A stretch of DNA of 64,000 bases from an uncultured Verrucomicrobia subdivision 3 bacterium (GTDB taxonomy: Bacteria > Verrucomicrobiota > Verrucomicrobiia > Limisphaerales > UBA11358): the NCBI GenBank assembly GCA_903858275.1, contig CAIOIC010000103.1, forward strand, positions 1 through 64,000, in the 5' to 3' direction. Shown here one piece after another: positions 26,016 to 41,770 of the stretch. Both the position numbers and the translations under genes were made by a program. The notes beneath the pieces are model-generated. The model made no database searches and was not told the origin of the DNA. It was given only the letters and a program-made list of their open reading frames with translations. Position 1 is the stretch's first letter. Each line of letters starts with the position of its first letter.

Positions 26016-27230
26016 TTAATTCAACGGCACGCCCCGCCGCAGAAAAGTCGGGATATCCAAATCCTCACCGTTGTGCTTGGTCGGCTCGCTCTTGTCGAAA
26101 CGCCCCTTGGAAATGATGTTCAACGGGAGTTGCGTCTGCACCAGCTTGTTGTTCGCCCGCCGCATCCGTGAAACCGGGCGTGGCGAAGTGACTTCACGCT
26201 GCGGGACGACCGAAGAATAGGCCGTGCGCGGTTCGGTCCGGGAAGCGGCCCCCACCACTGCGGCGTTCTGTTTGGCCGCAATGACGGTGACGCAGAGTTT
26301 TTCCTTCAACGCCCCGTCCACACCGGCACCCATGATGATTTGCGCGTGGCGGCACTGGCGTTTCACCTGTTCCATCACCCGGTTGACCTCGGCCATGCTT
26401 AAATCTTTTCCCGCTGTCAGACTCACCAGCACAGCGTCGGATTCCGCCAGCGCCCGACCTTCGTCCAACAGCGGATGCGCGAGAATTTTTTCCGCCACTT
26501 CGCGGGCGCGGCCCGGGCCGGCGGCCTCAACAAATGCAAAGGCGCTCTCCGCATGGCGGTCGCGGATGAGCGCGCAAAGGTCGGAAAAGTGAACCTGGAT
26601 GAGGCCCGGACGCGTGAGCAACTGCCACACGCCGCGCACGCCCTCAACGAGAAACCCACCGGTGAACCGGAAGGTTTCAACGAGACTGGTGTTTTCGTCA
26701 ATCAGCTTGAAAATTTTCTGACTCGGCAGGCAAATCACGCCATCGGCGGTGGATTTAAGCTGTTCCAGAGCGACCTGCGCCTGCGCTTCGCGCCGGTTGC
26801 CTTCACATTCAAAGGGCAGCGTCACAAACGCCAACACCAATGCGCCCGCCTCGTGAGCGGCCTTGGCAAACACAGGGCTAACACCACTGCCGGTGCCGCC
26901 GCCGAGCCCTGCCAGGATGAAAACGACGTTCGCCCCTTCGCACGCGGCTTTGAGCGTGGAAAACTGCTCCTCGGCCAGCGCGCGACCGCGGTCGGGATCA
27001 CCGCCGGAGCCAAGCCCGCGCATGAGTTTGTTTTCGAGGTTGATCTTAACCGTGGCGGACGACGCAGCGAGCGCAGCGGCATCGGTGTTGATGGCCGTGA
27101 ACTGGGCACCGGAAAATTCGGCCGCGGACAACGCGCCAAGCAAGGTGCTGCCCGCATTACCCACGGCGAAGATTCTCACGTCCAGGGCGGACGATGTTTC
27201 CAAAAAAGAATTTTGCTCAGGAGTTTCCAT
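26016..27230 (-). CDS. ftsZ: Divergent cell division GTPase FtsZ
   Basis: A 404-aa tubulin-family protein in the normal ftsZ position after ftsQ and ftsA. The GTP signature GLGGGTGSGV (about 107-116) and the C-terminal FtsA-binding tail DLDIPTFLRRGVPLN are kept. Other key sites are altered. The T1 loop reads VGNAGSTLL instead of VGGGGxN, the segment before the ITRPGL-type block is LPSQKI instead of IPNDK, FRFTGGFL replaces the usual ND pair, and the T7 catalytic loop is QVHFSD (about 212-217) instead of NxDFAD. It should still fold and bind partners, but GTPase activity may be weak or differ. ATG at 27230 is used. Confidence 0.85.
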   Translation of the reverse strand: METPEQNSFLETSSALDVRIFAVGNAGSTLLGALSAAEFSGAQFTAINTDAAALAASSATVKINLENKLMRGLGSGGDPDRGRALAEEQFSTLKAACEGANVVFILAGLGGGTGSGVSPVFAKAAHEAGALVLAFVTLPFECEGNRREAQAQVALEQLKSTADGVICLPSQKIFKLIDENTSLVETFRFTGGFLVEGVRGVWQLLTRPGLIQVHFSDLCALIRDRHAESAFAFVEAAGPGRAREVAEKILAHPLLDEGRALAESDAVLVSLTAGKDLSMAEVNRVMEQVKRQCRHAQIIMGAGVDGALKEKLCVTVIAAKQNAAVVGAASRTEPRTAYSSVVPQREVTSPRPVSRMRRANNKLVQTQLPLNIISKGRFDKSEPTKHNGEDLDIPTFLRRGVPLN

Positions 27231-27240
27231 AACCAGCCTT

Positions 27241-28452
27241 TCAAGTCCGTTGAAGAAAACGGCCAATGAACCCCTTGAAGAAAGGGCGCTCGGCGCGTTT
27301 TCGATTTTTAAGCGAGCCAAATTTCACCAGCCCGATGGCGGTGGCAAATTCCGGCTGATCCAGCGCCGTGGTCAGACCGCTGATGGCGCTGGCGTGACCG
27401 GGCGCGACGTTCATCTGGAAAATATTTTCCGCCAACGCCACGATACCCGGCACGCGCGAACAGCCGCCACAAAGAATCACACCGGCACGCAAGTAATTGC
27501 TGAGGCCGACCGCCTCGAGTTCCTGCGCGATGAGCCGGAAAGCCTCCTCGATCCGTAGCGACATGATGCGTTGCAGATGCTCGACATTGATACGCTTGAG
27601 CTCAAGACCCAGTTCGTTCGTGATGCTGATGGTCTGGCCTTTGGCCGCATCCGTGACCTGCGCGGAACCATATTCCATCTTCAATTTCTCCGCGCGGCTC
27701 AACGGAACTTTCAGGCCGTAGGCGAGGTCGTTGGAAACATGGTCACCGCCGACCGCCAGCACACCGGAATGCCGGATGACACCATCAAAATAAACTACGT
27801 ATTCCGTCGTGCCACCGCCAATGTCGATCACCAGAGCGCCCATTTCTTTCTGCTCGTTGGACAACAGCGCGAGCGAGGTGGCGATGCCGTTGAAAACAAT
27901 TTCATCCACTTCCAGCGACGTGCCGCGAACAAGGCGAATAATATTTTGCAGACGATTGGCGTGGCCGTGGATCACATGCATGTCCACTTCCAACCGCGCA
28001 CCGAGCATCCCAACGGGATTCATCACGCCTTCCTGACCATCCACAAAGAAATGCTGGCGCACCGCGTGGATGACTGTGTTTTCAGCGGGCAGATTGATGG
28101 CCTTGGCATTCTTGAGCACGTCATCCACGTCGTCCTGGGAAATTTCGCGGTCAGCAGAAACCACCGGATGCACGCCGCGATTGTTAAAGCCGCGGATGTG
28201 GCCACCGCTCACGCCGAGATAAACGCTGCGAACCTCCACGTCTGCCATCTGCTCAGCCTCGAACACCGCCGCACGCAAATCTTCCTCGACCTGTTCAGGG
28301 TTGATGATCTCGCCCTTGCGCACGCCGCGCGAACGCGACTGGCCCAGGCCAATGATGTTCAGCCCGCCTTCGGCAAGCTGCTCGCCCACGACGACACAGA
28401 TTTTCGAGGTACCGATTTCGAGACCGGCAATGATGTTGGAATCGTCAAACAT
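27241..28452 (-). CDS. ftsA: Cell division protein FtsA
   Basis: A 403-aa actin-like ATPase that tethers FtsZ to the membrane. The phosphate 1 motif is GLEIGTSKICVVVGEQ near the start, the phosphate 2 motif is ALVIDIGGGTTEYVVY (about 206-221), and VILCGGCSRVPGI lies near the C terminus. The SHS2-type 1C insert is GRxHIRGFNN-like (SGGHIRGFNNRGVH). The C-terminal FIGRFLQRT is a plausible amphipathic membrane helix. It overlaps ftsQ by 8 nt and ends 10 nt before ftsZ, so all three are translated as one unit. Confidence 0.95.
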   Translation of the reverse strand: MFDDSNIIAGLEIGTSKICVVVGEQLAEGGLNIIGLGQSRSRGVRKGEIINPEQVEEDLRAAVFEAEQMADVEVRSVYLGVSGGHIRGFNNRGVHPVVSADREISQDDVDDVLKNAKAINLPAENTVIHAVRQHFFVDGQEGVMNPVGMLGARLEVDMHVIHGHANRLQNIIRLVRGTSLEVDEIVFNGIATSLALLSNEQKEMGALVIDIGGGTTEYVVYFDGVIRHSGVLAVGGDHVSNDLAYGLKVPLSRAEKLKMEYGSAQVTDAAKGQTISITNELGLELKRINVEHLQRIMSLRIEEAFRLIAQELEAVGLSNYLRAGVILCGGCSRVPGIVALAENIFQMNVAPGHASAISGLTTALDQPEFATAIGLVKFGSLKNRKRAERPFFKGFIGRFLQRT

Positions 28453-29413
28453 TTTTCCTTCGGGGTTTAAAGGGTTTCACCGCTTTAGGCATAACACTCA
28501 CCGGCGCGGCACTGGCCATCATCCAGCGCACCGGCACATTGTTTGCCACGGCCAAATCTACCGAGGCGATTTCGCCTTTGTTCGCCTGCTTTCCGTAATC
28601 ATAAATCTCCCGCCAGCGGCGCAACTGCTGCTCCATTTTGTCGAGGCCAAAAGTAATCTTGCTGCCCTGCCCCGTCGTCGCCATCACCACACCGGGCGCG
28701 GAAACATCCAGACGCCGCAAATCCACCAGCCCTGCCATGGGCGATTTGCTGAAGGCGACAATTAACTTCAGCGCCGCCTGCACCTGCGGCAATTCCACCC
28801 GCCGTCCCGGCTGCAATTGAAATGCATTCAGCCCCGCAATCACGGGCAATTGCGGATTTACCTGCGCAAGCGGCACTGTGCAAAGCCGTGGATCCAGCGG
28901 CTGCATAACCATGCCATCGCCGTCGAGTTGGAAAATGGAAACGGCAATTCCCGCCGTGCCATCGGCGCGCGGCACGTTGACTTGCGCAATAGGCTCGCGC
29001 TCGGTCACGCGGATTTTTAAGGTGCGCGGCAGGACGCGCTCCACGGAAACCGTCTCGATTACCGAGACCAATTCCAGATTGCGCTTTACCGCTGCGAGAT
29101 CGAGGCCGATAAGATTTGCGCCCGGCTTCACACCGGTCCAGCGACGCAGTTGATCCGGCGCAATCGCGCCATCCGTCTTCACGTCAATCTGCTGAATGGC
29201 AAAATCGGCGTTCTGATAAACAAACGCATTGAGCGCAACTTCGCCAACGCGCCAGAGCAGATACAAACCAAAGAACGGTCCAGCCACCACGAGAAACAAA
29301 AACAACCCGAGCCGCAGCCGCAAGGCACGCACCTGATCGGAACGAAGCTTCACATCGAGCACGTTGTGACGGTGCAGACGGCGGTTCTTGTTTTGTTCGC
29401 GCTTAAACCACAT
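28445..29413 (-). CDS. ftsQ: Cell division protein FtsQ/DivIB
   Basis: A 322-aa bitopic membrane protein of the divisome FtsQBL subcomplex. A basic cytoplasmic N terminus (FKREQNKNRRLHRHNVLD) precedes a single membrane helix (LFLFLVVAGPFFGLYLLW, about 37-54). Then come a POTRA-type domain (FAIQQIDVKTDGAIAPDQLRRWTGVKPGANLIGLDLAAVKRNLE) and a beta domain (LPRTLKIRVTEREPIAQV). The length and architecture are normal. It sits between ddl (5 nt gap) and ftsA (overlap) in the canonical order. Confidence 0.92.
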   Translation of the reverse strand: MWFKREQNKNRRLHRHNVLDVKLRSDQVRALRLRLGLFLFLVVAGPFFGLYLLWRVGEVALNAFVYQNADFAIQQIDVKTDGAIAPDQLRRWTGVKPGANLIGLDLAAVKRNLELVSVIETVSVERVLPRTLKIRVTEREPIAQVNVPRADGTAGIAVSIFQLDGDGMVMQPLDPRLCTVPLAQVNPQLPVIAGLNAFQLQPGRRVELPQVQAALKLIVAFSKSPMAGLVDLRRLDVSAPGVVMATTGQGSKITFGLDKMEQQLRRWREIYDYGKQANKGEIASVDLAVANNVPVRWMMASAAPVSVMPKAVKPFKPRRKNV

Positions 29414-29418
29414 TTATT

Positions 29419-30336
29419 TCATGAGGCAGATGCCGCGTTCCGTTTCAACGCCAAGTCCACCATCCGCTGGCAGAGCTCGGCAAAATTCATTCCCGCCGCC
29501 GCTGCGGCTTTCGGGAGCAGGCTTGTTTCTGTCATGCCGGGCAGCGTGTTCACCTCCAGCACCACCGGCGAGCCATCCATACACACCATCACATCCACCC
29601 GCGCATAATCGCGTCCACCCACCGATTGGAAAGCAGCAAGCGCAGCCTCCTGAATCCGCTTAGTCGTCCCTACTTCAAAGTCCGCCGGGCAAAAATATTC
29701 CGTCGCGCCCGGCGTGTATTTGCTGTGGGCGTCATAGACGCCGTTATCCGGGCGAACTTCGACGACCGGCAACGGTTTGCCATCAAGAATTCCCACCGTC
29801 GTCTCGCGGCCAAAGATTTTTTCCTCAACCAGAACTTCCGAGTCAAATTTCAGGGCCACCGCCAGCGCACTTGGCCAGTCCTCGACGCGCTCGACAAATT
29901 GCAGTCCGACGCTCGAACCCTGCCGCGACGGCTTCACCACCAGCGGCACGGAAAAATTCTCCGGAAACGGCTCCGCCGCCGAATGCACAGTCACAAATTT
30001 CGGCGTCGGCACGCCGGCTTGAATGCAACTTTGCTTCGTCAGCACCTTGTCGAACGCAATACGGCTCGCCTCCGCATCGCAGCCGGTGTAAGGCACGGCC
30101 AGTTCATCCAAACGCTTCTGAATCGTGCCGTCTTCGCCGTAAGTTCCATGCAGTGCAAGAAACACCACGTCGGTTGCCGACGGCAAAATCCAGTCCGGTG
30201 TACGCGGATCAAGTTCATGCACCACATGGCCGAGCGAACGCAGCGCCGACACCACCGCTTCGCCGGAACGCAACGAGACTTCGCGCTCCGCACTCGGACC
30301 GCCCAGCATCACGGTAATGTTCAACTTCCGGCTCAT
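29419..30336 (-). CDS. ddl: D-alanine--D-alanine ligase
   Basis: A 305-aa ATP-grasp ligase that makes the D-Ala-D-Ala dipeptide for MurF. It starts ITVMLGGPSAEREVSLRSG (the Ddl signature), followed by DVVFLALHGTYGEDGTIQ, the ATP-binding PLVVKPSRQGSSVGLQFVE and VLVEEKIFGRETTVGIL, and the metal-site end DVMVCMDGSPVVLEVNTLPGMTETSLLPKAA. All core motifs are intact. Its start overlaps the end of murB by 4 nt. Confidence 0.95.
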   Translation of the reverse strand: MSRKLNITVMLGGPSAEREVSLRSGEAVVSALRSLGHVVHELDPRTPDWILPSATDVVFLALHGTYGEDGTIQKRLDELAVPYTGCDAEASRIAFDKVLTKQSCIQAGVPTPKFVTVHSAAEPFPENFSVPLVVKPSRQGSSVGLQFVERVEDWPSALAVALKFDSEVLVEEKIFGRETTVGILDGKPLPVVEVRPDNGVYDAHSKYTPGATEYFCPADFEVGTTKRIQEAALAAFQSVGGRDYARVDVMVCMDGSPVVLEVNTLPGMTETSLLPKAAAAAGMNFAELCQRMVDLALKRNAASAS

Positions 30337-31256
30337 TCTTCACCTATGATTTCAACTTCTGTGCGTAAATCAATCCCTCGTTCAACTTTAACTTTGGCCA
30401 CTATAAACCCAATCAATTCCAGCACATTTCTGGCGGTGGCGTCACCATCGTTCACCAGAAAATTCCCATGTTCCAGCGAAACTCGTGCACCGCCAATTTT
30501 CGTGCCTTTCAGGCCGAGTTCATCAATCAGTTTGCCCGCCGGAATCGTGGCCGGATTCTTGAACATACAACCGGCACTTGGCGCGGCGGGCTGCGAACTC
30601 CAGCGTTGCTCGCTGAACGCTTTCATCCGCGCCTCGATGGTCTCGCGCGGCTGCGGCGTGCAAATGAAAACCGCGCCCAGGGCGATACGGTTTTTCAAAG
30701 CATCACAGCTACGGTAACGGGCGGACATTTCAGTCGACTTGAGTTCGTGAACCTTGCCGGAAAGATCCATCATGCGGACGAATTCCACGACATTGAAAAC
30801 CTCGCTGCCCATGGCCCCGGCATTCATGCGCAGCGCGCCACCGATGCTGCCGGGAATACCTTCTAAAAATTCCAACCCGCTCAAGCCGGCGCGCTTTGCC
30901 TCAACGGCGACATTCCTTTGCTTTGCACCCGCGCCCACGCGGATGCGCTGGCCAACAATTTCAATCCGCGAAAAATCCGGCGACGACAGACAAATCACCA
31001 CGCCGCGAAAACCGCCGTCACGCACGATTAAATTTGAACCACGTCCGAGAACGAAAAACCTTACTGCCCGCTCACTGCAAAATTTCAGAATTGCCGTCAA
31101 ATCCGTTTCATTTGCCGGCTCGACATAAACATCCGCCGGTCCACCGATGCGCAAGGTCGTGTGCTTCGACATCGGCTCATCGCGTTGGATGACCGTTGAA
31201 GGCGAAACTTGCTGGGCCAGCGCTTCGAAATTTGATGTAGTTTCGAGCATCGTCAA
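30333..31256 (-). CDS. murB: UDP-N-acetylenolpyruvoylglucosamine reductase MurB
   Basis: A 307-aa FAD-dependent reductase completing UDP-MurNAc. The FAD domain shows HTTLRIGGPADVYVEP, FFVLGRGSNLIVRDGGFRG and LEFLEGIPGSIGGALRMNAGAMG, and the active site shows ARYRSC and SAGCMFKNP. In E. coli the proton donor is a Ser at this site; here it is Cys, a substitution that occurs in other MurB proteins. It overlaps murG by 4 nt and ddl by 4 nt. In the canonical cluster murC would stand between murG and murB; here there is no room for it. Confidence 0.94.
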   Translation of the reverse strand: MTMLETTSNFEALAQQVSPSTVIQRDEPMSKHTTLRIGGPADVYVEPANETDLTAILKFCSERAVRFFVLGRGSNLIVRDGGFRGVVICLSSPDFSRIEIVGQRIRVGAGAKQRNVAVEAKRAGLSGLEFLEGIPGSIGGALRMNAGAMGSEVFNVVEFVRMMDLSGKVHELKSTEMSARYRSCDALKNRIALGAVFICTPQPRETIEARMKAFSEQRWSSQPAAPSAGCMFKNPATIPAGKLIDELGLKGTKIGGARVSLEHGNFLVNDGDATARNVLELIGFIVAKVKVERGIDLRTEVEIIGEE

Positions 31257-32428
31257 GCCACAGCTTTCAATTTCATTTCAGCGCCAATCGGCGGTTTGGC
31301 TTCGGGGCGAACGCCTTGTTTTATTGCGGCCAATATGTGGTCGGCAATTTCCACCGGCGCGTTTGGCGCGTGCCATTGCGCCAGAGCGTTTTGAATTCTG
31401 GTACGGGAAGATTCATCAGTCACCAACTCGGTCAAAAAGACAGCAACCTTTTCCGGCGACGAATTTTTCTGGTCGAGCAACTTCGCCGCACCGGTTTTCT
31501 CGAAAGCGGCGGCATTGAAAAATTGATGGTTGTCCGCCGCTGTGGGCAGTGGCACGAGCGCGGATGGCAAACGTATCGCAGCGATTTCGGCAAGCGACGA
31601 GGCTCCGGCGCGACTGACGCAAGCGGTGGCCGCGCCGAGCGCCAGATCCATTTCCGCGAGGAACGGCTTAACGACCGCGTTGAGTCCAAGCCTGGCATAG
31701 GCGGAACGGACTATTTCAAAATCCTTCACGCCGGTGAGATGCAGCCATTGCCAGTTTTTTTCCGTAAACAACGGCAGCGCTGACAAAATCAAATCATTCA
31801 ATCCGCGCGCGCCCTGACTACCACCAACGACAAGAACGGTTGGGAGGCCTGGATCAAGACCGAGTAATTTTCGACTACTAGCTTCAAAATTCTGGACTCT
31901 TAATTCTGGAGAAAATCGCGCCCGGACAGGCGTTCCGGTCACGACTGTATTTTTTGTCAGCAAGCCGGCGGCGGCTTCTGGAAAACCGATGAATGCCGCG
32001 TCCACAAAACGCGAGAGAAACCGGTTTGACCGGCCGGGAATGGTGTTGGACTCGTGCAAAAAAGTTTTTACCGCCGAATCTTTCGCGGCCAAAACCGGCG
32101 GCGCGCTGGTAAATCCACCCATCGCCAGCACAGCGTCAGGCCGGCGACGGAGAAATAAATTCCACGCAACGAACAGCGATTGAGCAAAGCTGGCGATGAA
32201 CGGAAGATAATTCCCATTTTGCAAGCCGACGGCGGGCAGCGTGTAAATCTCCACACCGGTCACGGTTTTCACGGCTTGCTGATCCACGTCTTTCGGCGAG
32301 ATGAGCACGGCGACATCGCAGCCGCGCCGCTTAAGTTCACCGGCGACGGCGAGACCAGGAAAGAGATGTCCGCCCGTGCCGCCACACGCAATGGCGACGT
32401 AGGGCTTTTTTATGGCGGCAGAATTCAT
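31253..32428 (-). CDS. murG: MurG lipid II glycosyltransferase
   Basis: A 391-aa GT28 enzyme that adds GlcNAc to lipid I at the inner face of the membrane. The N-terminal glycine-rich motif is IACGGTGGHLFPGLAVAGELK, with SGGFTSAP-like AMGGFTSAPPVLAA. The C-terminal donor site includes VLVVGGSQGARGLND and SRAGASSLAEIAAIRLPSALVPLPTAADNHQ with the UDP-GlcNAc-binding residues. It overlaps ftsW by 4 nt upstream and murB by 4 nt downstream. Confidence 0.95.
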   Translation of the reverse strand: MNSAAIKKPYVAIACGGTGGHLFPGLAVAGELKRRGCDVAVLISPKDVDQQAVKTVTGVEIYTLPAVGLQNGNYLPFIASFAQSLFVAWNLFLRRRPDAVLAMGGFTSAPPVLAAKDSAVKTFLHESNTIPGRSNRFLSRFVDAAFIGFPEAAAGLLTKNTVVTGTPVRARFSPELRVQNFEASSRKLLGLDPGLPTVLVVGGSQGARGLNDLILSALPLFTEKNWQWLHLTGVKDFEIVRSAYARLGLNAVVKPFLAEMDLALGAATACVSRAGASSLAEIAAIRLPSALVPLPTAADNHQFFNAAAFEKTGAAKLLDQKNSSPEKVAVFLTELVTDESSRTRIQNALAQWHAPNAPVEIADHILAAIKQGVRPEAKPPIGAEMKLKAVA

Positions 32429-33561
32429 GTTGCCTTGGCGGCAAACGGATTATCGTTGGACTTGGAAATAAAGTCCGACATGAGAATTTTTGACGGATTT
32501 GCCTTACGCGCAATGCTAAATAAAATGCCGATGCACGTCAGCATGGCGAGCAGATTGGATCCGCCATAGCTGATGAAAGGCAGCGGCAAGCCTTTATTTG
32601 GAAGCGCGCTGGTGACGACACCGATGTTGATGGCGGCCTGCAGGCTGATGAGCAGCGTGATGCCGGTGGCTAGCAGCATGCCGAACGTGTCCCTAGCACG
32701 CAACGCGATGTAAAGTCCGCACAGCGCGATAACCAAGAACGCCAAAATCACCGCGAGCGTGACGATCAGGCCAAGTTCCTCGCCGATGATGGAAAAAATA
32801 AAATCGGTGTGATGCTCGGGCACGAAACCCAGTTTCTGCCGGCCATTGCCAAGGCCGAGGCCGTCCCAGCCTCCGGAACCCAGCGCAATCATTGCTTGAT
32901 ACGCCTGATAGCCGACGCCGTCCTTGCTTTGCTCCAAATTCCACCAGCTGAAAATCCGTTTCATGCGCATCGGGTCGCGCCAAATGGAATATCCCAGAGC
33001 CGCCAACGCCAGCGGCACGGGCAACAACATCTTTTTCCAATCCGTGCCGGCCAGCAGCAACATGCCCAGGCTGACTGCCGCGAGCAGAATCGTGGTGCCA
33101 CGATCAGGTTCGATAAAAATCAGGCCGAGAATCGCTCCAATAATGGCAACGGGGAAAACAATTCCCCATTTGAAGGTGGGCATCCAGCGCTGGAAGCGGT
33201 CGCCATACCAGGCAAGTATGACGATGAGAGCGATTTTCCCAAGTTCGGAGGGTTGAAAACGCACGCCGTGAAGATCGAACCAGCGACGGGCACCGTTGAT
33301 TTTACGGCCAACATGCGGCACAAGCACCAGGACAAGCATCAAAAAGGCGACGATAAAAATCGGCCATGCGAATTTTTTGAGAAGTTGGTAGTCCAACGAA
33401 GCGGCGGCAACACAGAAGCCGAAACCAAACACGCACCAAATGAGCTGCATCATCAAATAATGCGTCCCGACCTGCGTCATGCTCGAGCTATAAAGCATCA
33501 CCAGCCCCAACGCGAGGAGGCTGGTGACGCAAAATGCCAGAGTAGTGACGGCGACTTTCAT
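32425..33561 (-). CDS. ftsW: FtsW SEDS-family peptidoglycan glycosyltransferase
   Basis: A 378-aa polytopic protein of the SEDS family that polymerises septal glycan with its cognate PBP. Ten or so hydrophobic helices are evident. Typical segments include GLVMLYSSSM at the first helix, RWFDLHGVRFQPSELGKIALIV (periplasmic/active-site side), LIFIEPDRGTTILL, GLGLGNGRQKLGFVPEHHTDFIFSIIGEELGL and LPNKGLPLPFISYGGSNLLAML. The conserved Asp of the EPD motif is present. It starts 37 nt after the LysM gene and overlaps murG. Confidence 0.94.
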   Translation of the reverse strand: MKVAVTTLAFCVTSLLALGLVMLYSSSMTQVGTHYLMMQLIWCVFGFGFCVAAASLDYQLLKKFAWPIFIVAFLMLVLVLVPHVGRKINGARRWFDLHGVRFQPSELGKIALIVILAWYGDRFQRWMPTFKWGIVFPVAIIGAILGLIFIEPDRGTTILLAAVSLGMLLLAGTDWKKMLLPVPLALAALGYSIWRDPMRMKRIFSWWNLEQSKDGVGYQAYQAMIALGSGGWDGLGLGNGRQKLGFVPEHHTDFIFSIIGEELGLIVTLAVILAFLVIALCGLYIALRARDTFGMLLATGITLLISLQAAINIGVVTSALPNKGLPLPFISYGGSNLLAMLTCIGILFSIARKANPSKILMSDFISKSNDNPFAAKAT

Positions 33562-33598
33562 TTCAACTTTTCAAAAACCCAGCCGCGCCACGGACAGC

Positions 33599-34381
33599 TT
33601 ACTTGCCCGGCGCGCGAACCGGAGCTGGAGCCGTTACCGGCGGCAAAGCCGGGGCCGGAGCCGCTTCAACCGCCGGGGCGGGAGCCGCAGTCGCAGGAGC
33701 CGCTTCAGCTTTGACTGGAATTTTCAATTTCTGGCCGACCTTGATTTTGGTCGTGGTCAAACCATTTGCTGCTTGGATGGCCTTGACGCTGGCGCCAGTA
33801 GCTTTGGCAACCTTAGTGAGCGTGTCACCGGATTTCACGGTATAGCTTTGGCCGCCGTCCGCAACCGCGCCGCCGGAATTAACCGGTGCAGTTTCCGTGC
33901 CCGAAGCCGCCGGCTTGCCACCCGCAGGAATGACGAGCTTCTGGCCGACTTTCAATTTCGTCGGAACCACGGTAGGATTGGCAGCTTGCAGCGCTTTGAG
34001 CGTCACACCCTTTAGCTTGGCAATCTTGGCGAGCGAATCACCTTTGGCAACGACGTATTCAGAACCACCAACCGGCGCAGCGTCAACAACCGGCGGCAAC
34101 ACCACCGGCGGATTAGTCGGCGGTGGAATCACCACGGGCGGATTGGAAACGGAATTCAGCGGCGGATTGGTGGCGTCCATCGGCACATCATTGGTGGCGA
34201 GCGACGGCGGATTCAAATCGGTGTCCGGCTTCTCGCGCTTGCAGCCCTGGATGAGCATCGCGGTCAGGCCAGTGACGCTCACGGCGAGCACACAGAAGAC
34301 GGCGAGTTTGAGGCGGGAACGGCGCTGGCTTTGTTGTTCGAGCAGCGAGCCTTTGGGGACGAACGGATTTGGATTGTTCAT
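33599..34381 (-). CDS. LysM-domain peptidoglycan-binding protein, probably lipid- or membrane-anchored
   Basis: A 260-aa protein. A cytoplasmic stretch of about 25 residues is followed by a hydrophobic helix (LKLAVFCVLAVSVTGLTAML) ending IQGC, which could be a lipobox. A Pro/Asn-rich spacer and two LysM modules follow: EYVVAKGDSLAKIAKLKGVT..LKVGQKLVIP and SYTVKSGDTLTKVAKATGAS..IKVGQKLKIP. The C terminus is Ala/Pro-rich. LysM binds glycan strands. It occupies the slot between mraY and ftsW where murD usually sits. ATG at 34381 is used; upstream in-frame residues look non-coding. Confidence 0.9.
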   Translation of the reverse strand: MNNPNPFVPKGSLLEQQSQRRSRLKLAVFCVLAVSVTGLTAMLIQGCKREKPDTDLNPPSLATNDVPMDATNPPLNSVSNPPVVIPPPTNPPVVLPPVVDAAPVGGSEYVVAKGDSLAKIAKLKGVTLKALQAANPTVVPTKLKVGQKLVIPAGGKPAASGTETAPVNSGGAVADGGQSYTVKSGDTLTKVAKATGASVKAIQAANGLTTTKIKVGQKLKIPVKAEAAPATAAPAPAVEAAPAPALPPVTAPAPVRAPGK

Positions 34382-34672
34382 AATTTTGCGCAAGTGCGGG
34401 TTTAGTTCGAGGTATGTTTTATTTTTTGAGTTTGGCGTGGCGGAACTTTCCCTCGAAAAATTTCGCAACGCGTTAAATCTGTTTTAATTTGGGAGCCGGG
34501 CGTGAGTCCTGCGTGGAAAAAATTACCGGCAGAAAGATAAAATGGTGAAACACTCTTGCTGACCGGCACGCGCCCTGCCGCTCTGCCACAAATTGTTAGC
34601 AACCGCGCCCCGGTCACGCAAGCAACAAAGCGCGGATTTTCAATGTTTTTTTGTCGCTTCACGGCGTAAATA
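34382..34672. other. Non-coding gap in the dcw cluster
   Basis: These 291 bases between mraY and the LysM gene hold no credible gene on either strand and no recognisable remnant of murD. The stretch is A/T-richer than its surroundings and is the most likely place for an internal promoter serving the LysM-ftsW-murG-murB-ddl-ftsQAZ half of the cluster. I could not define -35/-10 boxes with confidence. Confidence 0.5.
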
Positions 34673-35851
34673 TCAGCGCAATTTCAAGGTTGCCAAAGCC
34701 ACCACCGCGCACAGCACGCACAAAATGTAGAACCGGATCACCACCTGCGATTCATGCCAGCCCTTTTTTTGGAAATGATGATGCAGCGGTGCCATCAAAA
34801 AAATTCTTTGCCCCGCGCCGGTGCGGATGCGGGTGTATTTGAACCAGCCTTTCTGCAACATCACTGACACGGCTTCCACCACGAAGACGCCTCCCGCAAT
34901 CACCAGCACAAACGGCTGATGAATCAGCACGGCAATCAGGCCAAACGCGCCCCCCAGCGCCAGCGAGCCGGTATCCCCCATGAACACTTGCGCCGGATGG
35001 CAGTTGAACCACAAAAACCCCAACCCCGCGCCGAGCAGCGCCGCGCAAAATACGGTCAGTTCACCCGCGCCTACGACGTAGGGAATTTGCAGATACGCCG
35101 CCGCCTTGATATTGCCCGCGAGATAGGTGAAAAATAAAAAAACAAACCCCACAATCAGCGTGCAGCCAATCGCCAGACCGTCGAGGCCGTCCGTCAGGTT
35201 CACCGCATTCGAGCTGCCGACAATCGCTAGTGCCACAATGATTACGCCCGCCACCGCGCCAATGTGCAGCGGGTATTTATAAAACGGCAGGATCAACGTC
35301 GAGATAAGGCTGCTGTGCCAGACGTGTTTGATGCCGAGCAAATGCAGTTCGCTTTTGACCGGCAGGTTCCACAGATAAATCCCCACGAAAATCGCCAGCG
35401 CAAACTGCACGATCAACTTCACCCGCGGCGGAGTGCCGCCACCGCTTTGCTTCACAATTTTGGCGTAGTCATCGTAAAATCCCAGCCCGGCCAGCACCAG
35501 AACCGCGAGCATCATCAGTTGCACCTGCGCATTCCATTGCGCCCAGAGCATCGTGGAAAACACCAGCGCCACCACAATCAGCAAACCGCCCATGGTCGGC
35601 GTGCCTTTTTTGTCCACCACGTGTTTGACGCCGGATTCCTCGGCCTTGTCCACATACTCCTGCCCAAACTTCTGCGCCTTCAGCCAATGGATGATTTTGG
35701 GGCCGAACCACCAGCTCAGTGCCAGCGCCGTCACGGCTGCGCCGGCACAGCGCACGGTGATGTAGCGGAACAGGCGCAGGAACGACAACCGCGATTCCCA
35801 GTCGCTGCCGTGCGCCCAATCCAAAATTTGCTGGCTCAAAAGGTAAAGCAT
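34673..35851 (-). CDS. mraY: Phospho-MurNAc-pentapeptide translocase MraY
   Basis: A 392-aa integral membrane enzyme transferring phospho-MurNAc-pentapeptide to undecaprenyl phosphate (lipid I). Signature segments are KKGTPTMGGLLIV, GFYDDYAKI with the Asp pair, GSSNAVNLTDGLDGLAIG, FLWFNCHPAQVFMGDTGSLALGG (the DTGS loop) and MAPLHHHFQKKGWHESQVVIRF (the HHH motif). About ten membrane helices are visible. It lies 12 nt after murF. Confidence 0.96.
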   Translation of the reverse strand: MLYLLSQQILDWAHGSDWESRLSFLRLFRYITVRCAGAAVTALALSWWFGPKIIHWLKAQKFGQEYVDKAEESGVKHVVDKKGTPTMGGLLIVVALVFSTMLWAQWNAQVQLMMLAVLVLAGLGFYDDYAKIVKQSGGGTPPRVKLIVQFALAIFVGIYLWNLPVKSELHLLGIKHVWHSSLISTLILPFYKYPLHIGAVAGVIIVALAIVGSSNAVNLTDGLDGLAIGCTLIVGFVFLFFTYLAGNIKAAAYLQIPYVVGAGELTVFCAALLGAGLGFLWFNCHPAQVFMGDTGSLALGGAFGLIAVLIHQPFVLVIAGGVFVVEAVSVMLQKGWFKYTRIRTGAGQRIFLMAPLHHHFQKKGWHESQVVIRFYILCVLCAVVALATLKLR

Positions 35852-35863
35852 TTTGTCTATTTT

Positions 35864-37246
35864 TTATTTCTCCGCCTTCAACATTTCCGCAATCCGTTCC
35901 AGCCGCGATGAGCGGGACGCCTTCAACAGCACCACATCGCCCGGCTTCAAAAAGTTTTTTATCGCCGCCAGCGCGCCTTCGACTCCTGAAAATTCAAAGA
36001 CCCGCATCAGCCCGGCATCGCGGGCCGCCTGCCCCACCACCGCCGCCATTTTACCAACTGCGAACAACTGGCCAACTTCCAATTCCGCCGCCCGCCGGCC
36101 AATTTCCGCGTGCGCCGCCTCGGTGTGCGCGCCCAACTCCGCCATGTCACCCAGCACCGCCACGCGCCGACCCTGCAACGGCAGACCGCACAACGTCTCC
36201 AGCGCCGCGACGGTGGAATCGGCATTCGCGTTGTAACAATCGTCCAGCACGCGCACGCCATTCGCCTCCCAGAAATTCAAACGCATTTTCGCCGCCTGAC
36301 ATTCGGTCAGGCCACTCTGGATTTCAACGCGATTCAAACCCAGTTCCTCACCAACCGCGATTGCAAAAAGAGTATTCACAACCTGATGGCGGCCAAGCAA
36401 GTTCACGCGATACTCACCGGCAAAATCTTTCTTCGCCGATTCGACTTGAAACGTCACGCCGTTTTTATCCAGCCGGATTTTCTTTGCCCGCCAGTCGTTA
36501 TTTTTGCCAGCGCCAACGCGGAAAACCTGCGCCTTCGTCCGAGCAGCAATTTTATCCACCCACTCGCTATCGCCATCTAAATATAATTTTCCATCCGCCG
36601 GCAGCAGTTCCGCGAGGACGCCTTCCTCCTGCGCCACACCCGCGACATCGCCAAAGAATTCCAGATGCTCGCGACCGATATTCGTGATGACACCAAATTT
36701 CGGCTGCACCATTTTAACCAGCGGGGCCAGTTCGCCCGGATGATTGGTGCCCACTTCCAGCACGGCCGCTTGATGCATTTTCTCCAGCCGCAGCAAGGTC
36801 ATCGGCACGCCGATGTCGTTATTAAAACTCGCCTCGCTCCAGAGCGTCAAACCTTTCTGCCTCAAAACCGAGGCGAGCAGTTCCTTCACCGTCGTCTTGC
36901 CGTTCGAGCCGGCGACCGCGATGACCGGCAAATCAAATTGCCGGCGATAAGCCGCCGCCAGATGTCCCAGCGCCGCGCGGACATTTTTCACAGCCAACAA
37001 CGGACAATGCAGATTAACCGCCGGAACTTTTTGTTCCTCAACGACAATGGCCGCGACATTTTTTGACGCCACTTCACCAACAAAATCATGACCGTCAAAT
37101 TTTTCGCCCTTGATGGCAAAAAATATGTCGCCCGCCTTCGCCTGCCGCGAGTCAATGCAGACGTTATTAATCAGCGTCTCTGGCGAACTGGATTTGAATT
37201 CGGCATCGCAGGCATCCGCGACAAATTTTACAGAGAGCGCTTCCAC
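35864..37246 (-). CDS. murF: MurF UDP-MurNAc-tripeptide--D-Ala-D-Ala ligase
   Basis: A 460-aa Mur ligase that adds D-Ala-D-Ala to UDP-MurNAc-tripeptide. Domain 1 has VCIDSRQAKAGDIFFAIKGEKFDGHDF, the ATP site is VIAVAGSNGKTTVKELLASVL (about 110-130), VLEVGTNHPGELAPLVKMVQPKFGVITNIGREHLEFFG is MurF-type, and the C-terminal domain shows VLDDCYNANADSTVAAL. The DxxYNAN motif marks MurF rather than MurE. It is the only amide-forming Mur ligase in this cluster. Confidence 0.95.
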   Translation of the reverse strand: MEALSVKFVADACDAEFKSSSPETLINNVCIDSRQAKAGDIFFAIKGEKFDGHDFVGEVASKNVAAIVVEEQKVPAVNLHCPLLAVKNVRAALGHLAAAYRRQFDLPVIAVAGSNGKTTVKELLASVLRQKGLTLWSEASFNNDIGVPMTLLRLEKMHQAAVLEVGTNHPGELAPLVKMVQPKFGVITNIGREHLEFFGDVAGVAQEEGVLAELLPADGKLYLDGDSEWVDKIAARTKAQVFRVGAGKNNDWRAKKIRLDKNGVTFQVESAKKDFAGEYRVNLLGRHQVVNTLFAIAVGEELGLNRVEIQSGLTECQAAKMRLNFWEANGVRVLDDCYNANADSTVAALETLCGLPLQGRRVAVLGDMAELGAHTEAAHAEIGRRAAELEVGQLFAVGKMAAVVGQAARDAGLMRVFEFSGVEGALAAIKNFLKPGDVVLLKASRSSRLERIAEMLKAEK

Positions 37247-37250
37247 AATA

Positions 37251-37982
37251 TTATTTCAACAAAAACGTCGCAGTGACCACGGCGGTGATGGTTTTCTTCC
37301 GGGAGGCGGTGTCATTCTCGCCACCCCAACTCACGCGAACCTCGTGTTTCGGTGTGATTTGAAAAATCCCCTGATCCGCGCTTTGCAATTGGGAAATGAC
37401 GCGTCCGCCTTGAATCGCAATCTGCTCGGCGCGGGCACGGGCGTCTTTGGTGGCATCGGCCAACATCTCGATTTTGGCCTCTCCGGCCTTGGTGTAAATG
37501 AACTGCGGCGGAGCGACGGTGAAAATCACCCCCTGCTCCACCAACGACGTGGTGTCGAGCTTGTCGAGCCGATCCACATCGGTAGATTCCACCGACACGC
37601 TCTGGCTTAAACGATAGCCCGTGGTGCGCTGCGAAACATAACCGTCGGCAGACTTTTGCGTCGCCTTCAGTTCTTCAATACCGATGGGCGCAAAAGTAAA
37701 TTTTGCCACTCCGGCATCATTCAGAAATTTCGCCACCAGCGCATGGTTGTCCTTAATTTTGTGCTGCGCCTCGAGCAGGGTCACCGCCTCGACCTGAAAA
37801 CTGCCGGACCAGATGGCGAGATCTGATTCGATGTTTTTTTGCACAGAGCCTTTGACGGTGATGAATTGTGAATTTTTTATTTTCACCCAAGCCGATGTGC
37901 CGAGCATGGCCGAGCAGACAAGCCCGGCGGCCAAAAACAGACCGGCGAGCATGCCAAAAAGTTGCGGACGTGATTCATTCAT
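37251..37982 (-). CDS. SIMPL (DUF541) domain protein with one membrane anchor
   Basis: A 243-aa protein. An N-terminal hydrophobic segment (LFGMLAGLFLAAGLVCSAML) anchors a periplasmic SIMPL domain: ITVKGSVQKNIESDLAIWSGSFQV, GYRLSQSVSVESTDVDRL, FIYTKAGEAKIEMLADATKDARARAEQIAIQGG. SIMPL proteins (YggE-like, BP26) form ring oligomers and are linked to oxidative stress or envelope integrity; their function is not settled. It is placed between ftsI and murF (4 nt gaps on both sides), where murE is normally found. Confidence 0.88.
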   Translation of the reverse strand: MNESRPQLFGMLAGLFLAAGLVCSAMLGTSAWVKIKNSQFITVKGSVQKNIESDLAIWSGSFQVEAVTLLEAQHKIKDNHALVAKFLNDAGVAKFTFAPIGIEELKATQKSADGYVSQRTTGYRLSQSVSVESTDVDRLDKLDTTSLVEQGVIFTVAPPQFIYTKAGEAKIEMLADATKDARARAEQIAIQGGRVISQLQSADQGIFQITPKHEVRVSWGGENDTASRKKTITAVVTATFLLK

Positions 37983-37986
37983 AAAT

Positions 37987-39888
37987 TTATGTTTTACGCG
38001 GGAGGTTTTTGCCTCCCATGGTTGGGGTGTTGGTCATCAATTTCGGATCCATCGGAATGTTCAGATAACTCGCACAGCGCTCGGCAATGTCGCGAAATAC
38101 CGGACCGCAAACTTTGCCGCCGTAATAACCCTCCTTCGGCTCGTCCATCACCACGGAAATGCAAAGCTCCGGATTGTCCGCCGGGAAAAATCCGATGAAC
38201 GATGAAATGTATTTGCCGTGGGCGTAAGTGCCGTTTTCCACCTTCTGCGCCGTGCCAGTCTTGCCGGCCACGACATAATTTTTTAATTCCGCATCCGGCG
38301 CGGTGCCGCCCTTCATTGGAACTGTTTTTAATGCTTGAAGAATGTCGCGGTAAGCTTGCTCACCAATGACCTGCCGCACACGTTCCGGCGCATAGCGCTG
38401 CACCACGCTGCCGTCGCGTGCCTGCAAACGACTTACGAGCATCGGTCGCATCAGCCAGCCATGATTCGCGATTGCGGCCATCGCGTAAAGCATTTGCAAC
38501 CGCGTCACCGCCACGCCATGGCCCATCGGAATCTGCGCGATGGAAACTTTGCTCCATTGCTTCACCGGATTTAAAATTCCGCGCGCCTCACCCGGCAATG
38601 GGATGCCCGATTTACGGCCGAAACCATAATTCCAAGAGTAGTCATAAAGACCTTGCTCGCCGAGTTTGATGCCGATTTTCGCCGCGCCAATATTGGACGA
38701 TTTCGTGATGATACTTTCCGTGGACATCATCCCATAACCCTCATGATCGTGCAGCACACGACCAGCAAAGGCGAAGCGGCCGCGCTCACAATCAAACTGG
38801 TCACTCAACCTCACCTTGCCGCTGTCCAGCGCGCCGGAGACGACAACAATTTTGAAAGTGGATCCCGGCTCAACCACGTCTGCAATCACGCGATTATGCG
38901 TTCCGGATTTGTAGGTATTCGGATCATTCGGATCGTAGTTCGGCAACGAAACCATCGCTAAAATCTCTCCCGTGCGCGGACGCATGACGATACCGGTGAT
39001 GCCTTTCGGCGTGTGTTTTTGCAGCGCATCCGCCAGCGCCGTCTCGACGATGTGCTGCACCGCCGAATCAATTGTCAGCACGATGTTCAAACCGTCACGC
39101 GCATGAACATCCTCATCTCGCAGGGCCACTTGCTCACGCTGTGCCCGGTCTGTTTCAGTCGTCCGCCAGCCGAACACCCCATCCAACTGCTTGTCCATGG
39201 AAAGCTCGATGCCATCGCGACCGGTGATTTGTGAAATCAAGTGGCCACTGACGTTTGTTTCCTCCACTGCCGTAAATCCAATCACCTGTGATGCCAGCGC
39301 GCCGTTGGGATAAACCCGCAGCTGGTCCGGCTCCGCAAAAATCGCCCGCTGCCGCAGATTACGGAGAAAGGTGCGATTGGTCCGCGTCAGGAGCTTTTCA
39401 TCCACGCCAAAGGTAAGATTGGTCATCGTCGCCACCACGCGTTGCCAGGTTTCCTCGGGAACCCGGGCGGCAAGCCGAACATATTTCAATTCATTCGTGA
39501 CGGACTGCCCATTGCGATTTTTTTTTACGGTCACCCGCGGCGTCAATTTCTGGGCAAGTTCAGCCTCGTTCAACTTCAACACCGGCGCAATGGCGCGGGC
39601 CACCACCGCCGACTGGTTTCCCACGAGCGACGGATCGGCGCAAATCCGTTTCACCGCCACACTCGTGGCCAAAAAATTGCCATTCGCATCAAGAATGTCG
39701 CCGCGCCGCGGCGCCTGCCAATACTCCCGCTGCGTGTTATTTCCAGCCAGCTTGGCCAACTCGACATGACGCAAGACCTGCAAATCCACGAGCCGGTAAA
39801 CCAACCCGGCAAAGGCCGCGCCGAGAAGCCCCAGCAACAGCAGCGCGCGATGGATTTGTTGTTTATTGGTCATCCAAAAAACGGCCAA
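37987..39888 (-). CDS. ftsI: Division-specific penicillin-binding protein (FtsI/PBP3)
   Basis: A 633-aa class B transpeptidase cross-linking septal peptidoglycan. There is an N-terminal membrane helix (LLLLGLLGAAFAGLVYRLVDL), then the pedestal domain (ANGNFLATSVAVKRICADP). The transpeptidase domain has the active-site VVEPGSTFKIV (Ser of SxxK at about 343), TKSSNIGAAKIG (SSN, about 396) and VAGKTGTAQKV (KTG, about 541). All three motifs are intact. It follows ftsL after 62 nt and precedes the SIMPL gene by 4 nt. Confidence 0.95.
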   Translation of the reverse strand: MAVFWMTNKQQIHRALLLLGLLGAAFAGLVYRLVDLQVLRHVELAKLAGNNTQREYWQAPRRGDILDANGNFLATSVAVKRICADPSLVGNQSAVVARAIAPVLKLNEAELAQKLTPRVTVKKNRNGQSVTNELKYVRLAARVPEETWQRVVATMTNLTFGVDEKLLTRTNRTFLRNLRQRAIFAEPDQLRVYPNGALASQVIGFTAVEETNVSGHLISQITGRDGIELSMDKQLDGVFGWRTTETDRAQREQVALRDEDVHARDGLNIVLTIDSAVQHIVETALADALQKHTPKGITGIVMRPRTGEILAMVSLPNYDPNDPNTYKSGTHNRVIADVVEPGSTFKIVVVSGALDSGKVRLSDQFDCERGRFAFAGRVLHDHEGYGMMSTESIITKSSNIGAAKIGIKLGEQGLYDYSWNYGFGRKSGIPLPGEARGILNPVKQWSKVSIAQIPMGHGVAVTRLQMLYAMAAIANHGWLMRPMLVSRLQARDGSVVQRYAPERVRQVIGEQAYRDILQALKTVPMKGGTAPDAELKNYVVAGKTGTAQKVENGTYAHGKYISSFIGFFPADNPELCISVVMDEPKEGYYGGKVCGPVFRDIAERCASYLNIPMDPKLMTNTPTMGGKNLPRKT

Positions 39889-39950
39889 CCGCCCGTGGCG
39901 ATCGGTTCCTCAACCAACGGCGTCACGAGCGGCGGCCAAAAAGATCTTAT

Positions 39951-40328
39951 TTACGGCGTTTGTTGGATCGCCAGCCGTTGGGCAAATTGCCGCGAACTAT
40001 TTTTCTCCTGTGTCACCAACATCTCCGCAATCCGCACCACTTGAAGCGGCTGCGCCGGCACTAGGCCAAGACACAACTCCTTAGCCCGGCGATCCAGCAT
40101 CACCGGTGAATGTAAAATGGCAATCTGGTCACCCAGCCGCTTGTTGTCGTTCTGCGTCTGCACTAGGCGTTTTTCGCGTTCCAAAATCTGCTGGCCCAGC
40201 CGGTTGATCTCATTCTTCTGCCAAACATAGCCGAGCGCTGAACCACCGATGAGCAGGCACAAAAACGACGCTTTCAGCGCCGGACCAAACCGGATCGCTG
40301 CCGCCTGATTTTTTCGATTCTTGGCCAT
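39951..40328 (-). CDS. ftsL: FtsL-like cell division protein
   Basis: A 125-aa bitopic protein. A basic N-terminal tail (MAKNRKNQAAAIR) leads into a membrane helix (ASFLCLLIGGSALGYVW) and a coiled-coil region (EINRLGQQILEREKRLVQTQNDNKRLGDQIAIL) with a short conserved end. This size, topology and position right after rsmH and before ftsI define FtsL, even though the sequence itself is poorly conserved between phyla. It bridges FtsQ and FtsB to FtsW/FtsI at the septum. Confidence 0.85.
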   Translation of the reverse strand: MAKNRKNQAAAIRFGPALKASFLCLLIGGSALGYVWQKNEINRLGQQILEREKRLVQTQNDNKRLGDQIAILHSPVMLDRRAKELCLGLVPAQPLQVVRIAEMLVTQEKNSSRQFAQRLAIQQTP

Positions 40329-40329
40329 C

Positions 40330-41262
40330 TCAAATTTTCTCCAGCACCCGCAACTGCGCGCTCCGGGCGCGCGGATTTTCTTTTAATTCAACTTCGCCCG
40401 GCAAAATCGCCTTGCGTTGAAGCCATTTCAGTTCCGGCAAAATCGGCGTCCGCAACTCGGGCACATCCACCTCGCCGCTGAAGATGTAATCACGCGTCCG
40501 TTCACGACCAAACTCTTTCATAACGCGGTCTTCAAGCGAATGAAACGTGATCACCGCCAACCGCCCGCCGGGCTTCAAAATCTTCGCCGCCGCCGCCAGA
40601 CCGCGCTTCAGCGAGCCAATCTCGTCGTTCACCGCGATGCGCAGCGCCTGAAAGACCTTCGTCGCAGGATGCGCTTTTTTTCCGTGGCGCGGCGCGAGCC
40701 GCTCGATCAAATCCGCCAACTGCTTCGTCGTCTCAAATTTTCGCAAGACGCGGTCGTGGACAATTGCCTTCGCAAACCGCCGGGAATCACGCTCGCCGCC
40801 AAATTCCCAAAAAAAATTCGCCAGCGTTTCGGCGTCCTCGCCATTCACCAAATCCGCCGCCGTCACCGGCTGCCGGTCGTCCATCCGCATATCCAGCGGG
40901 CCGTCCTGCATGAAACTGAAGCCGCGTTCCGCGACATCCAGTTGCGGCGAGCTCACGCCCAAATCCAACAGCACGCCGTCACAACTTTTTTCCGGCACCC
41001 AGTCCGCCAGTTCCGCAAAATTTCCGCGCCGGATCTCAAACCGTCCGGCAAATTTTTCCGCGAGACGTTGCTTCGCAGCCTCAACCGCGACGCCATCGCG
41101 ATCGCACCCAGACAGCCATCCAGTCAGCGAACTCGCGGCCAGAATTCGCGTCGCGTGACCAGCGCCACCGAGCGTCCCGTCGGCGTAACGGCCGTTCGGG
41201 TGCGGCTTCAGTGCGGCCAGCACCTCCGCCGCCATCACTGGTTGGTGAATGAATTCTGGCAC
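40330..41262 (-). CDS. rsmH: 16S rRNA (cytosine(1402)-N(4))-methyltransferase RsmH
   Basis: A 310-aa methyltransferase acting on C1402 in the decoding centre. The N terminus is VPEFIHQPVMAAEVL (HxPV block), the SAM motif YADGTLGGAGHATRIL, GVLLDLGVSSPQLDVAERGFSF, DMRMD, and the C-terminal RLAVITFHSLEDRVMKEFG and NPRARSAQLRVLE are all standard. GTG at 41262 gives the family's usual length. It ends 1 nt before ftsL and begins 10 nt after the upstream unknown gene. Confidence 0.95.
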   Translation of the reverse strand: MPEFIHQPVMAAEVLAALKPHPNGRYADGTLGGAGHATRILAASSLTGWLSGCDRDGVAVEAAKQRLAEKFAGRFEIRRGNFAELADWVPEKSCDGVLLDLGVSSPQLDVAERGFSFMQDGPLDMRMDDRQPVTAADLVNGEDAETLANFFWEFGGERDSRRFAKAIVHDRVLRKFETTKQLADLIERLAPRHGKKAHPATKVFQALRIAVNDEIGSLKRGLAAAAKILKPGGRLAVITFHSLEDRVMKEFGRERTRDYIFSGEVDVPELRTPILPELKWLQRKAILPGEVELKENPRARSAQLRVLEKI

Positions 41263-41272
41263 TTTGCATTGG

Positions 41273-41770
41273 CTAATCAGCCTGGAGCAGTCGTTCCCCC
41301 ATAAATTCCCAAGCCTGCCGCGCAGGCGGCAAAATCGGCGCTTCCGGCTTGGCAACCGTCCGCGACTTGATTGGAACAACTTCGATGTCCGCGTCAGCCA
41401 GGTCATTGTGAACGACCTTCACCCCCTCCAGCGAAAGCTCAACCTGCACCGCGCTGGCCAGCGGCGGCGCAACCGGCTCCGGCGCGCGAAATGGATTCAG
41501 TTTGGTCGCCCAGCCAGCCGACCGGGCGGGCTGAGCCACAGAAGGCGTCGGAATTTTTTGTATCTTGGCCGCCACCGGCACAACTACCGGAGTCGAAACT
41601 TTTTTAACTTCCGGCGCGGCGACCGGCAGCGGTTCCACCGGTTTCGTCGTAAATGGATTTTTGCCGGTGTTGAATTTTGGCAGCTGAAATTTTTTATCTT
41701 CGCGGTAGACAGCGTTGCTGCCGCCGCCAAAAAAACTTTTTCCCGCGCCGAGTAATTTTCCAAGATTCAT
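41273..41770 (-). CDS. Pro/Val-rich hypothetical protein between mraZ and rsmH
   Basis: A 165-aa protein I do not recognise. It starts MNLGKLLGAGKSFFGGGSN and has two related short blocks (PKFNTGKNPF near 35 and TKLNPFRAPEP near 92) separated by a Pro/Val-rich linker (PVVVPVAAKIQKIPTPS). It ends PPARQAWEFMGERLLQ. No signal peptide or membrane segment is seen. The gene begins 2 nt after mraZ, so it belongs to the dcw operon and is presumably tied to division or wall synthesis. It looks largely disordered, with short motifs that could be protein-binding sites. Confidence 0.8.
   Translation of the reverse strand: MNLGKLLGAGKSFFGGGSNAVYREDKKFQLPKFNTGKNPFTTKPVEPLPVAAPEVKKVSTPVVVPVAAKIQKIPTPSVAQPARSAGWATKLNPFRAPEPVAPPLASAVQVELSLEGVKVVHNDLADADIEVVPIKSRTVAKPEAPILPPARQAWEFMGERLLQAD

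Follow-up and report, generated by a model that had tools for sequence, protein, structure and literature searches.

A fixed Gln/His form of the FtsZ catalytic loop in a Limisphaerales genus, and repeated replacement of the loop across sampled Verrucomicrobiota

How does a bacterium divide with an FtsZ that lacks two of the three residues on which GTP hydrolysis by FtsZ elsewhere depends? The hydrolysis motif of the T7 loop of FtsZ is defined as NxDxx[D/E] (PMC12583498), and the residues N207, D209, and D212 (E. coli numbering throughout) are treated as conserved and as necessary for both assembly and GTPase activity (PMC8936486, PMC12583498). The question is raised by a gene in a 64,000-nucleotide stretch of DNA from an uncultured Verrucomicrobia subdivision 3 bacterium (contig CAIOIC010000103.1; the whole stretch is hereafter the window), whose product has QVHFSD where E. 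coli has NVDFAD. The gene and its neighbors are the following.

26016..27230, minus strand: ftsZ, 404 aa, with no other tubulin-superfamily gene found in the genome
27241..28452, minus strand: ftsA (Pfam FtsA, SHS2_FTSA)
28445..29413, minus strand: ftsQ (Pfam POTRA_1, FtsQ_DivIB_C)
29419..37246, minus strand: the remaining dcw run, with ddl, murB, murG, ftsW, a LysM protein, mraY, and murF

The coding sequence runs on the minus strand from an ATG at 27230 to a stop at 26016–26018; the mechanical open reading frame opens upstream of this, at a TTG (27320) within ftsA. The canonical position after ftsA that a sequence-only reading had given the gene holds, as ftsZ directly follows ftsA with dcw synteny. 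The dcw run (29419–41406) further has a SIMPL protein, an ftsI-like transpeptidase, and mraW, and no murC, murD, or murE was found among the proteins scanned in it. Two Pfam domains score above cut-off in the product, Tubulin with 109.9 bits and FtsZ_C with 62.6 bits, and it carries the tubulin signature GGGTG[ST]G in the form GGGTGSG. Structure prediction consisted of one AlphaFold2 monomer (pLDDT 83.7), and all 50 PDB matches listed for this model are FtsZ entries (target TM 0.79 to 0.90). Judged by sequence and gene order alone, the C-terminal FtsA-binding peptide and the order ftsQ-ftsA-ftsZ are both present. The NCBIfam equivalog model TIGR00065 scores 252.6 bits, below its cut-off of 295.2, which reflects much of the phylum: 131 of the 145 genomes in a phylum draw likewise have no match over the cut-off (130 below it, one without a match). 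Twelve of the 14 genomes above it belong to a single family, f41.

T7 positions were set by an ungapped local alignment to B. subtilis FtsZ and by an alignment to E. coli FtsZ. The active-site elements and the tail of the window protein are as follows.

27138..27161, minus strand: T1 loop GNAGSTLL, with G20N, G21A, and N24T
27075..27089, minus strand: T2 loop NTDAA, Mg2+-side N43 and D45 kept, K+-locking Q47 replaced by A
26883..26903, minus strand: T4 tubulin signature GGGTGSG, T108 present
26790..26813, minus strand: T5 region FECEGNRR, E138 and arginine-finger-like R142 kept
26712..26729, minus strand: LPSQKI, N165 replaced by S
26649..26672, minus strand: T6/H7 start FRFTGGFL, guanine-side N186 replaced by G
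26580..26597, minus strand: T7 (synergy) loop QVHFSD, with N207Q and D209H, D212 kept
26034..26060, minus strand: C-terminal FtsA-binding peptide LDIPTFLRR, kept in sequence

We take LDIPTFLRR to be the FtsA-binding peptide, the role that the sequence-only reading had also assigned to it. Both alignments agree that T7 reads QVHFSD, departing from the hydrolysis motif and retaining only D212 of the three residues, as the sequence-only reading had it; T1, LPSQKI, and FRFTGGFL are altered at GTP-binding positions (N24T, N165 to S, N186 to G), and the tail is kept, just as it had described. GGGTGSG is kept as well, yet in this the window protein is an exception in its own genus. The T3 and T4 glycines, D45, E138, R142, D212, and the tail are all retained. 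Compared with FtsZ of E. coli, B. subtilis, and S. aureus, the protein is alike in fold, signature, T3 glycines, E138, R142, D212, C-terminal peptide, and place after ftsQ-ftsA, but N207, D209, Q47, N24, N165, and N186 are replaced and TIGR00065 falls below cut-off.

Structures of S. aureus FtsZ assign distinct roles to these residues (PMC8936486). The catalytic water is positioned by D210 (E. coli D209), which swings; K+ is coordinated by N208 (N207) and locked in place by Q48 (Q47) of the neighboring subunit; D46 (D45) serves Mg2+; and R143 (R142) is arginine-finger-like. The substitutions N208L, D210N, and D213N abolish assembly in that species, and mutants at the same positions are said to inactivate E. 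coli FtsZ (PMC8936486).

Is the altered loop a property of one sequence or of a lineage? An ftsZ match was found in 46 of 49 genomes of the genus, of which 45 could be read through T7; one genome (G009) was dropped from the rows, its FtsZ being fragmented and split over contigs. All readable genomes of the genus lack both N207 and D209 (0/45 each): position 207 is Q in 40, P in 3, and R in 2; position 209 is H in 44 and R in 1; and position 212 is D in 44 and E in 1, with the full Q/H/D combination in 39 of the 45. A sequencing error at 26580–26597, for which the sequence-only reading had allowed, is excluded by this uniform lack, and the 39 Q/H/D genomes together with the ungapped alignment leave practically no chance for either such an error or a misassigned loop. 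Purifying selection acts on ftsZ in the genus: dN/dS has a median of 0.17 (range 0.03 to 0.34) over the 902 of 990 genus pairs with dS < 2. The word ‘broken’, earlier applied to the catalytic loop, is thus misleading, since the residues are fixed in the lineage and selection maintains them.

Elsewhere in the active site the genus is invariant at some positions and permissive at others. E138 and R142 are present in 45/45 rows and D45 in 42/45, and Q47 is found in only two. Position 108 is A in 44/45, so that most kin read GGGAGSG, and T only in the window, where the T108 codon (26892–26894) is an apparent reversal in one species. When the 304 sites are ranked by column entropy (low values being conserved), E138 and R142 stand at percentile 0, H209, D212, and A108 at the 16th, N165 at the 87th, and N24 at the 96th. 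The guanine side could be read as a sign that nucleotide dependence itself has been altered or lost, with assembly proceeding on any NTP, on GDP, or without nucleotide: N24 is missing from 45/45 rows, N165 from 37/45 (present in 8), and N or D at position 186 from 40/45 (D in 5, N in none), and N24 and N165 are among the most variable sites of the genus. The near-invariance of residues on the phosphate and sugar sides (T3/T4 glycines, E138, and R142) suggests, however, that nucleotide is still bound, and we regard a loss of nucleotide dependence as improbable.

A protein with a changed T7 might instead be one subunit of a pair, a second FtsZ or tubulin supplying the catalytic loop, as the sequence-only reading had proposed. 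The genome that contains the window (94 percent complete) has one PF00091 match. Across the genus, 46 of 49 genomes have one tubulin-superfamily gene and none was found in the remaining three; the gene is single in 28 of the 28 good genomes (completeness of 90 percent or more, contamination of 5 percent or less). Nothing in favor of a partner was found in the 49 genus genomes, which are drafts, and as far as drafts allow these counts refute the proposal, leaving it barely credible. The BtubA/BtubB system also differs, consisting of two genes closer to eukaryotic tubulin, whereas here there is one gene whose closest structures listed are FtsZ. Weak extra matches to the FtsZ model do occur in four genomes of family f50 (G163, G168, G215, G422), in frames of 425–492 aa that are probably BtubA/BtubB. 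One genome of family f53 (G180) has two full-length FtsZ genes, L221 and L242, with Q/T/D and P/T/E at the three positions, both without N207 and D209.

The same residues were compared outside the phylum and across it. All three are kept in 16 of 17 FtsZ sequences from outside Verrucomicrobiota (the exception has S207), and N165 and an N or D at 186 are present in 17/17; these controls are E. coli and 16 plasmid-collection records, one control being an archaeon and some of the records being megabase-sized and probably chromosomes. Within the phylum, all three residues are kept in just 61 of 312 sampled genomes, and D209 taken alone in 149; the 312 rows (one per genome) are not random, having been drawn from search lists that favor better-scoring FtsZ, with divergent families added by hand. 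The full set is kept in 0/45 rows of the genus, 36/117 of other members of the order, 17/101 of the rest of the class, and 8/49 of other classes, where one row gapped at 207/209/212 is counted as lacking it. Families differ in their states: H209 occurs mostly in one clade of the order, G209 in f33, f39, and f50, and T, S, A, or G at position 212 in f41, f38, f58, and f60. In the very divergent families f37, f124, and f128, T7 cannot be aligned with certainty. In f41 (e.g., L198, L204, L210, L274–L278) 15/15 rows have N207 and D209 together with T, S, A, or G at 212. A108 is rare beyond the order (1/102 rows in the rest of the class, 2/49 in other classes). One sampled genome (L067), titled Methylacidimicrobium fagopyrum, encodes an FtsZ 68 percent identical to that of the window, and its title looks wrong.

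From these comparisons, the pattern is better described as a catalytic loop that has been replaced repeatedly in the FtsZ of sampled Verrucomicrobiota, the genus representing a fixed Gln/His form. Verrucomicrobial FtsZ has been called among the most divergent (PMC9871819); a search of open-licence papers, which is weak evidence of absence, turned up no passage stating that Verrucomicrobiota FtsZ lacks T7 residues.

We placed these states on a phylogeny of 223 rows built without the trait columns, which omits other classes, E. coli, the class families except f32, f33, f34, f36, f38, f39, f41, f58, and f60, and genomes G009, G188, G423, G271, G682, G684, and G701. The complete N207/D209/D212 state requires at least 18 changes on this tree, against a mean of 47 and a least value of 41 over 100 label shuffles, and the presence of D209 requires at least 11. 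The 68 rows with H209 all belong to a single clade, which comprises 78 rows from 13 family codes and has no D209 (SH-aLRT 99 in this quick tree). A more careful 74-row tree recovers the D209-less clade with 27 rows (UFBoot 99, SH-aLRT 83). The earliest branch of the clade in either tree is family f104, in which T108 is kept. In the 223-row tree, A108 is confined to the D209-less clade, which has a single origin. Q47 is absent from 20 of the 53 rows of the tree that keep all three T7 residues, and can therefore be lost independently of a changed T7.

When T7 was tested for co-variation with T108, Q47, and the base contacts, no sign test was significant, most having too few pairs to reach significance. 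Co-evolution across the subunit interface was set aside for the same reason: raw counts look associated, but the independent-pair sign tests do not bear this out. Loss of the FtsZ regulators MinC or ZapA was likewise discarded as a correlate of T7 change. Among 49 genomes chosen from both H209 families and families with the full set, MinC_C was found in none and ZapA in one (a match in a frame of 75 aa at the end of a contig), which does not discriminate between T7 states.

A single clade with a nearly fixed histidine invites the reading that catalysis has been re-wired and remains competent, with His209, D212, and R142 positioning the water so that turnover is near normal and filaments treadmill. 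H209, D212, and R142 are indeed conserved in the genus (44/45, 44/45, and 45/45), and the absence of D209 from the whole 78-row clade fits. But His is not universal even there, the other 10 rows having R, Q, P, or T; position 209 is G, which cannot act as a base, in 36 of 102 rows from the rest of the class; and most genus rows lack T108 and Q47 as well. We consider competent re-wired catalysis unlikely.

Rates of change bear on a different possibility, that the protein is decaying toward loss. Of 41 families compared, 34 show faster divergence of FtsZ than of FtsA (mean log-identity ratio above 1, many families being a single pair), most strongly in f37 (3.94) and f20 (2.07). The three f37 loci (L239, L240, L241), which are perhaps Methylacidiphilaceae, share 45 percent identity in FtsZ against 71 percent in FtsA, with T7 hardly alignable. 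FtsZ is also absent from the sister phyla Planctomycetota and Chlamydiota (PMC12283558), where decay would have run to completion. In the genus, however, the dN/dS given above, the conserved T7 substitutes and tail, and an FtsZ/FtsA ratio of just 1.12 argue against decay, as does the report that ftsZ is essential in Verrucomicrobium spinosum (PMC12283558); we hold it to be highly improbable. Family f41 makes the point more generally: D212 is missing from 15/15 rows, yet FtsZ evolves more slowly than FtsA (ratio 0.59), so a changed T7 need not mean a relaxed protein.

V. spinosum itself offers the closest point of comparison with published work. Both printed ftsZ primers for this species (PMC1845146) match a single genome, G785 of family f50 (8.2 Mb), at the same locus (the forward primer matches one of 68 f50 genomes, and the second was searched at the G785 locus), and we take G785 as V. 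spinosum or a very close relative. T7 of its FtsZ has the sequence RMGIAD, with R207/G209/D212. N24, N165, D186, T108, and R142 are present, and the protein has a long C-terminal extension, the frame read being cut by the end of the locus before the tail. It thus resembles the window protein in having N207 and D209 replaced, D212 kept, and a place in a dcw cluster, but differs in carrying R207/G209 rather than Q207/H209, in its intact N24, N165, and D186, and in the extension. V. spinosum FtsZ has been called canonical, with its gene in a dcw cluster, and eight divergent positions have been described in it; the text of that paper leaves T7 unnamed among them, and its figure may show them (PMC1845146). 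The gene is reported as essential from transposon sequencing in this organism, which divides by binary fission (PMC12283558). Taken with the G785 sequence, this implies that an FtsZ can be essential even where T7 lacks N207 and D209. The sequence-only reading had held that residues carried by all close relatives would, given normal GTPase and filaments, be lineage-typical variation. The close relatives do carry them, but the spread of such loops through the phylum and an FtsZ reported as essential among them make the observation more interesting, not less.

Our preferred reading, to which we give a probability of roughly 0.58, is that the window gene encodes the normal division FtsZ, present in one copy, of a Limisphaerales lineage in a fixed non-canonical active-site state, binding nucleotide and hydrolyzing GTP slowly or by altered chemistry. 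The sequence shows D209, N207, and Q47 replaced and the guanine-side N24, N165, and N/D186 relaxed. Nucleotide would still be bound on its phosphate side, the filament would polymerize head to tail, and the septal machinery would be scaffolded through FtsA. GTP hydrolysis would be slow because T7 would no longer position the attacking water, and turnover of the ring would be slow, as in E. coli D212G, or would depend on something other than hydrolysis. Weak hydrolysis is plausible, since S. aureus FtsZ uses the residues replaced here to place the catalytic water and to bind K+ (PMC8936486). The fixed His209 could do other chemistry, or may stabilize T7 against the neighboring phosphates without K+.

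Low-GTPase FtsZ has precedents of two kinds. In E. coli, GTPase activity of membrane-targeted D212G is lowered almost tenfold and the rings it forms are static (PMC7320174), and D212A is cited at 7 percent activity (PMC8142252); these too are T7 catalytic defects, but in laboratory mutants at D212, which is kept here. FtsZ of Candidatus Thiosymbion oneisti has naturally low GTPase activity with its catalytic residues conserved (PMC8953583), whereas N207 and D209 are replaced in the window protein. Since the three S. aureus substitutions abolish assembly, a low-GTPase filament is not the simple consequence of losing these residues, and compensating changes must exist.

Most sampled members of the phylum lack at least one of N207, D209, and D212, and one such FtsZ is reported to be essential, which makes Verrucomicrobiota natural material for asking what purpose GTP hydrolysis by FtsZ serves. 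V. spinosum FtsZ, canonical in print, could be put to the test at once, because targeted mutagenesis has been reported for that species (PMC12283558). As a tentative proposal that we think possible and by no means probable, the Z ring of Verrucomicrobiota would have been repeatedly uncoupled from T7-catalyzed, K+-assisted hydrolysis while FtsZ stayed essential; T7 in the Limisphaerales His clade would be K+-independent, base recognition would be relaxed in the genus, and these lineages would be living intermediates linking GTPase-driven division to the FtsZ-free division of Planctomycetota and Chlamydiota. The finding bears on how these sister phyla came to divide without FtsZ, and the division ring of Verrucomicrobiota may work unusually.
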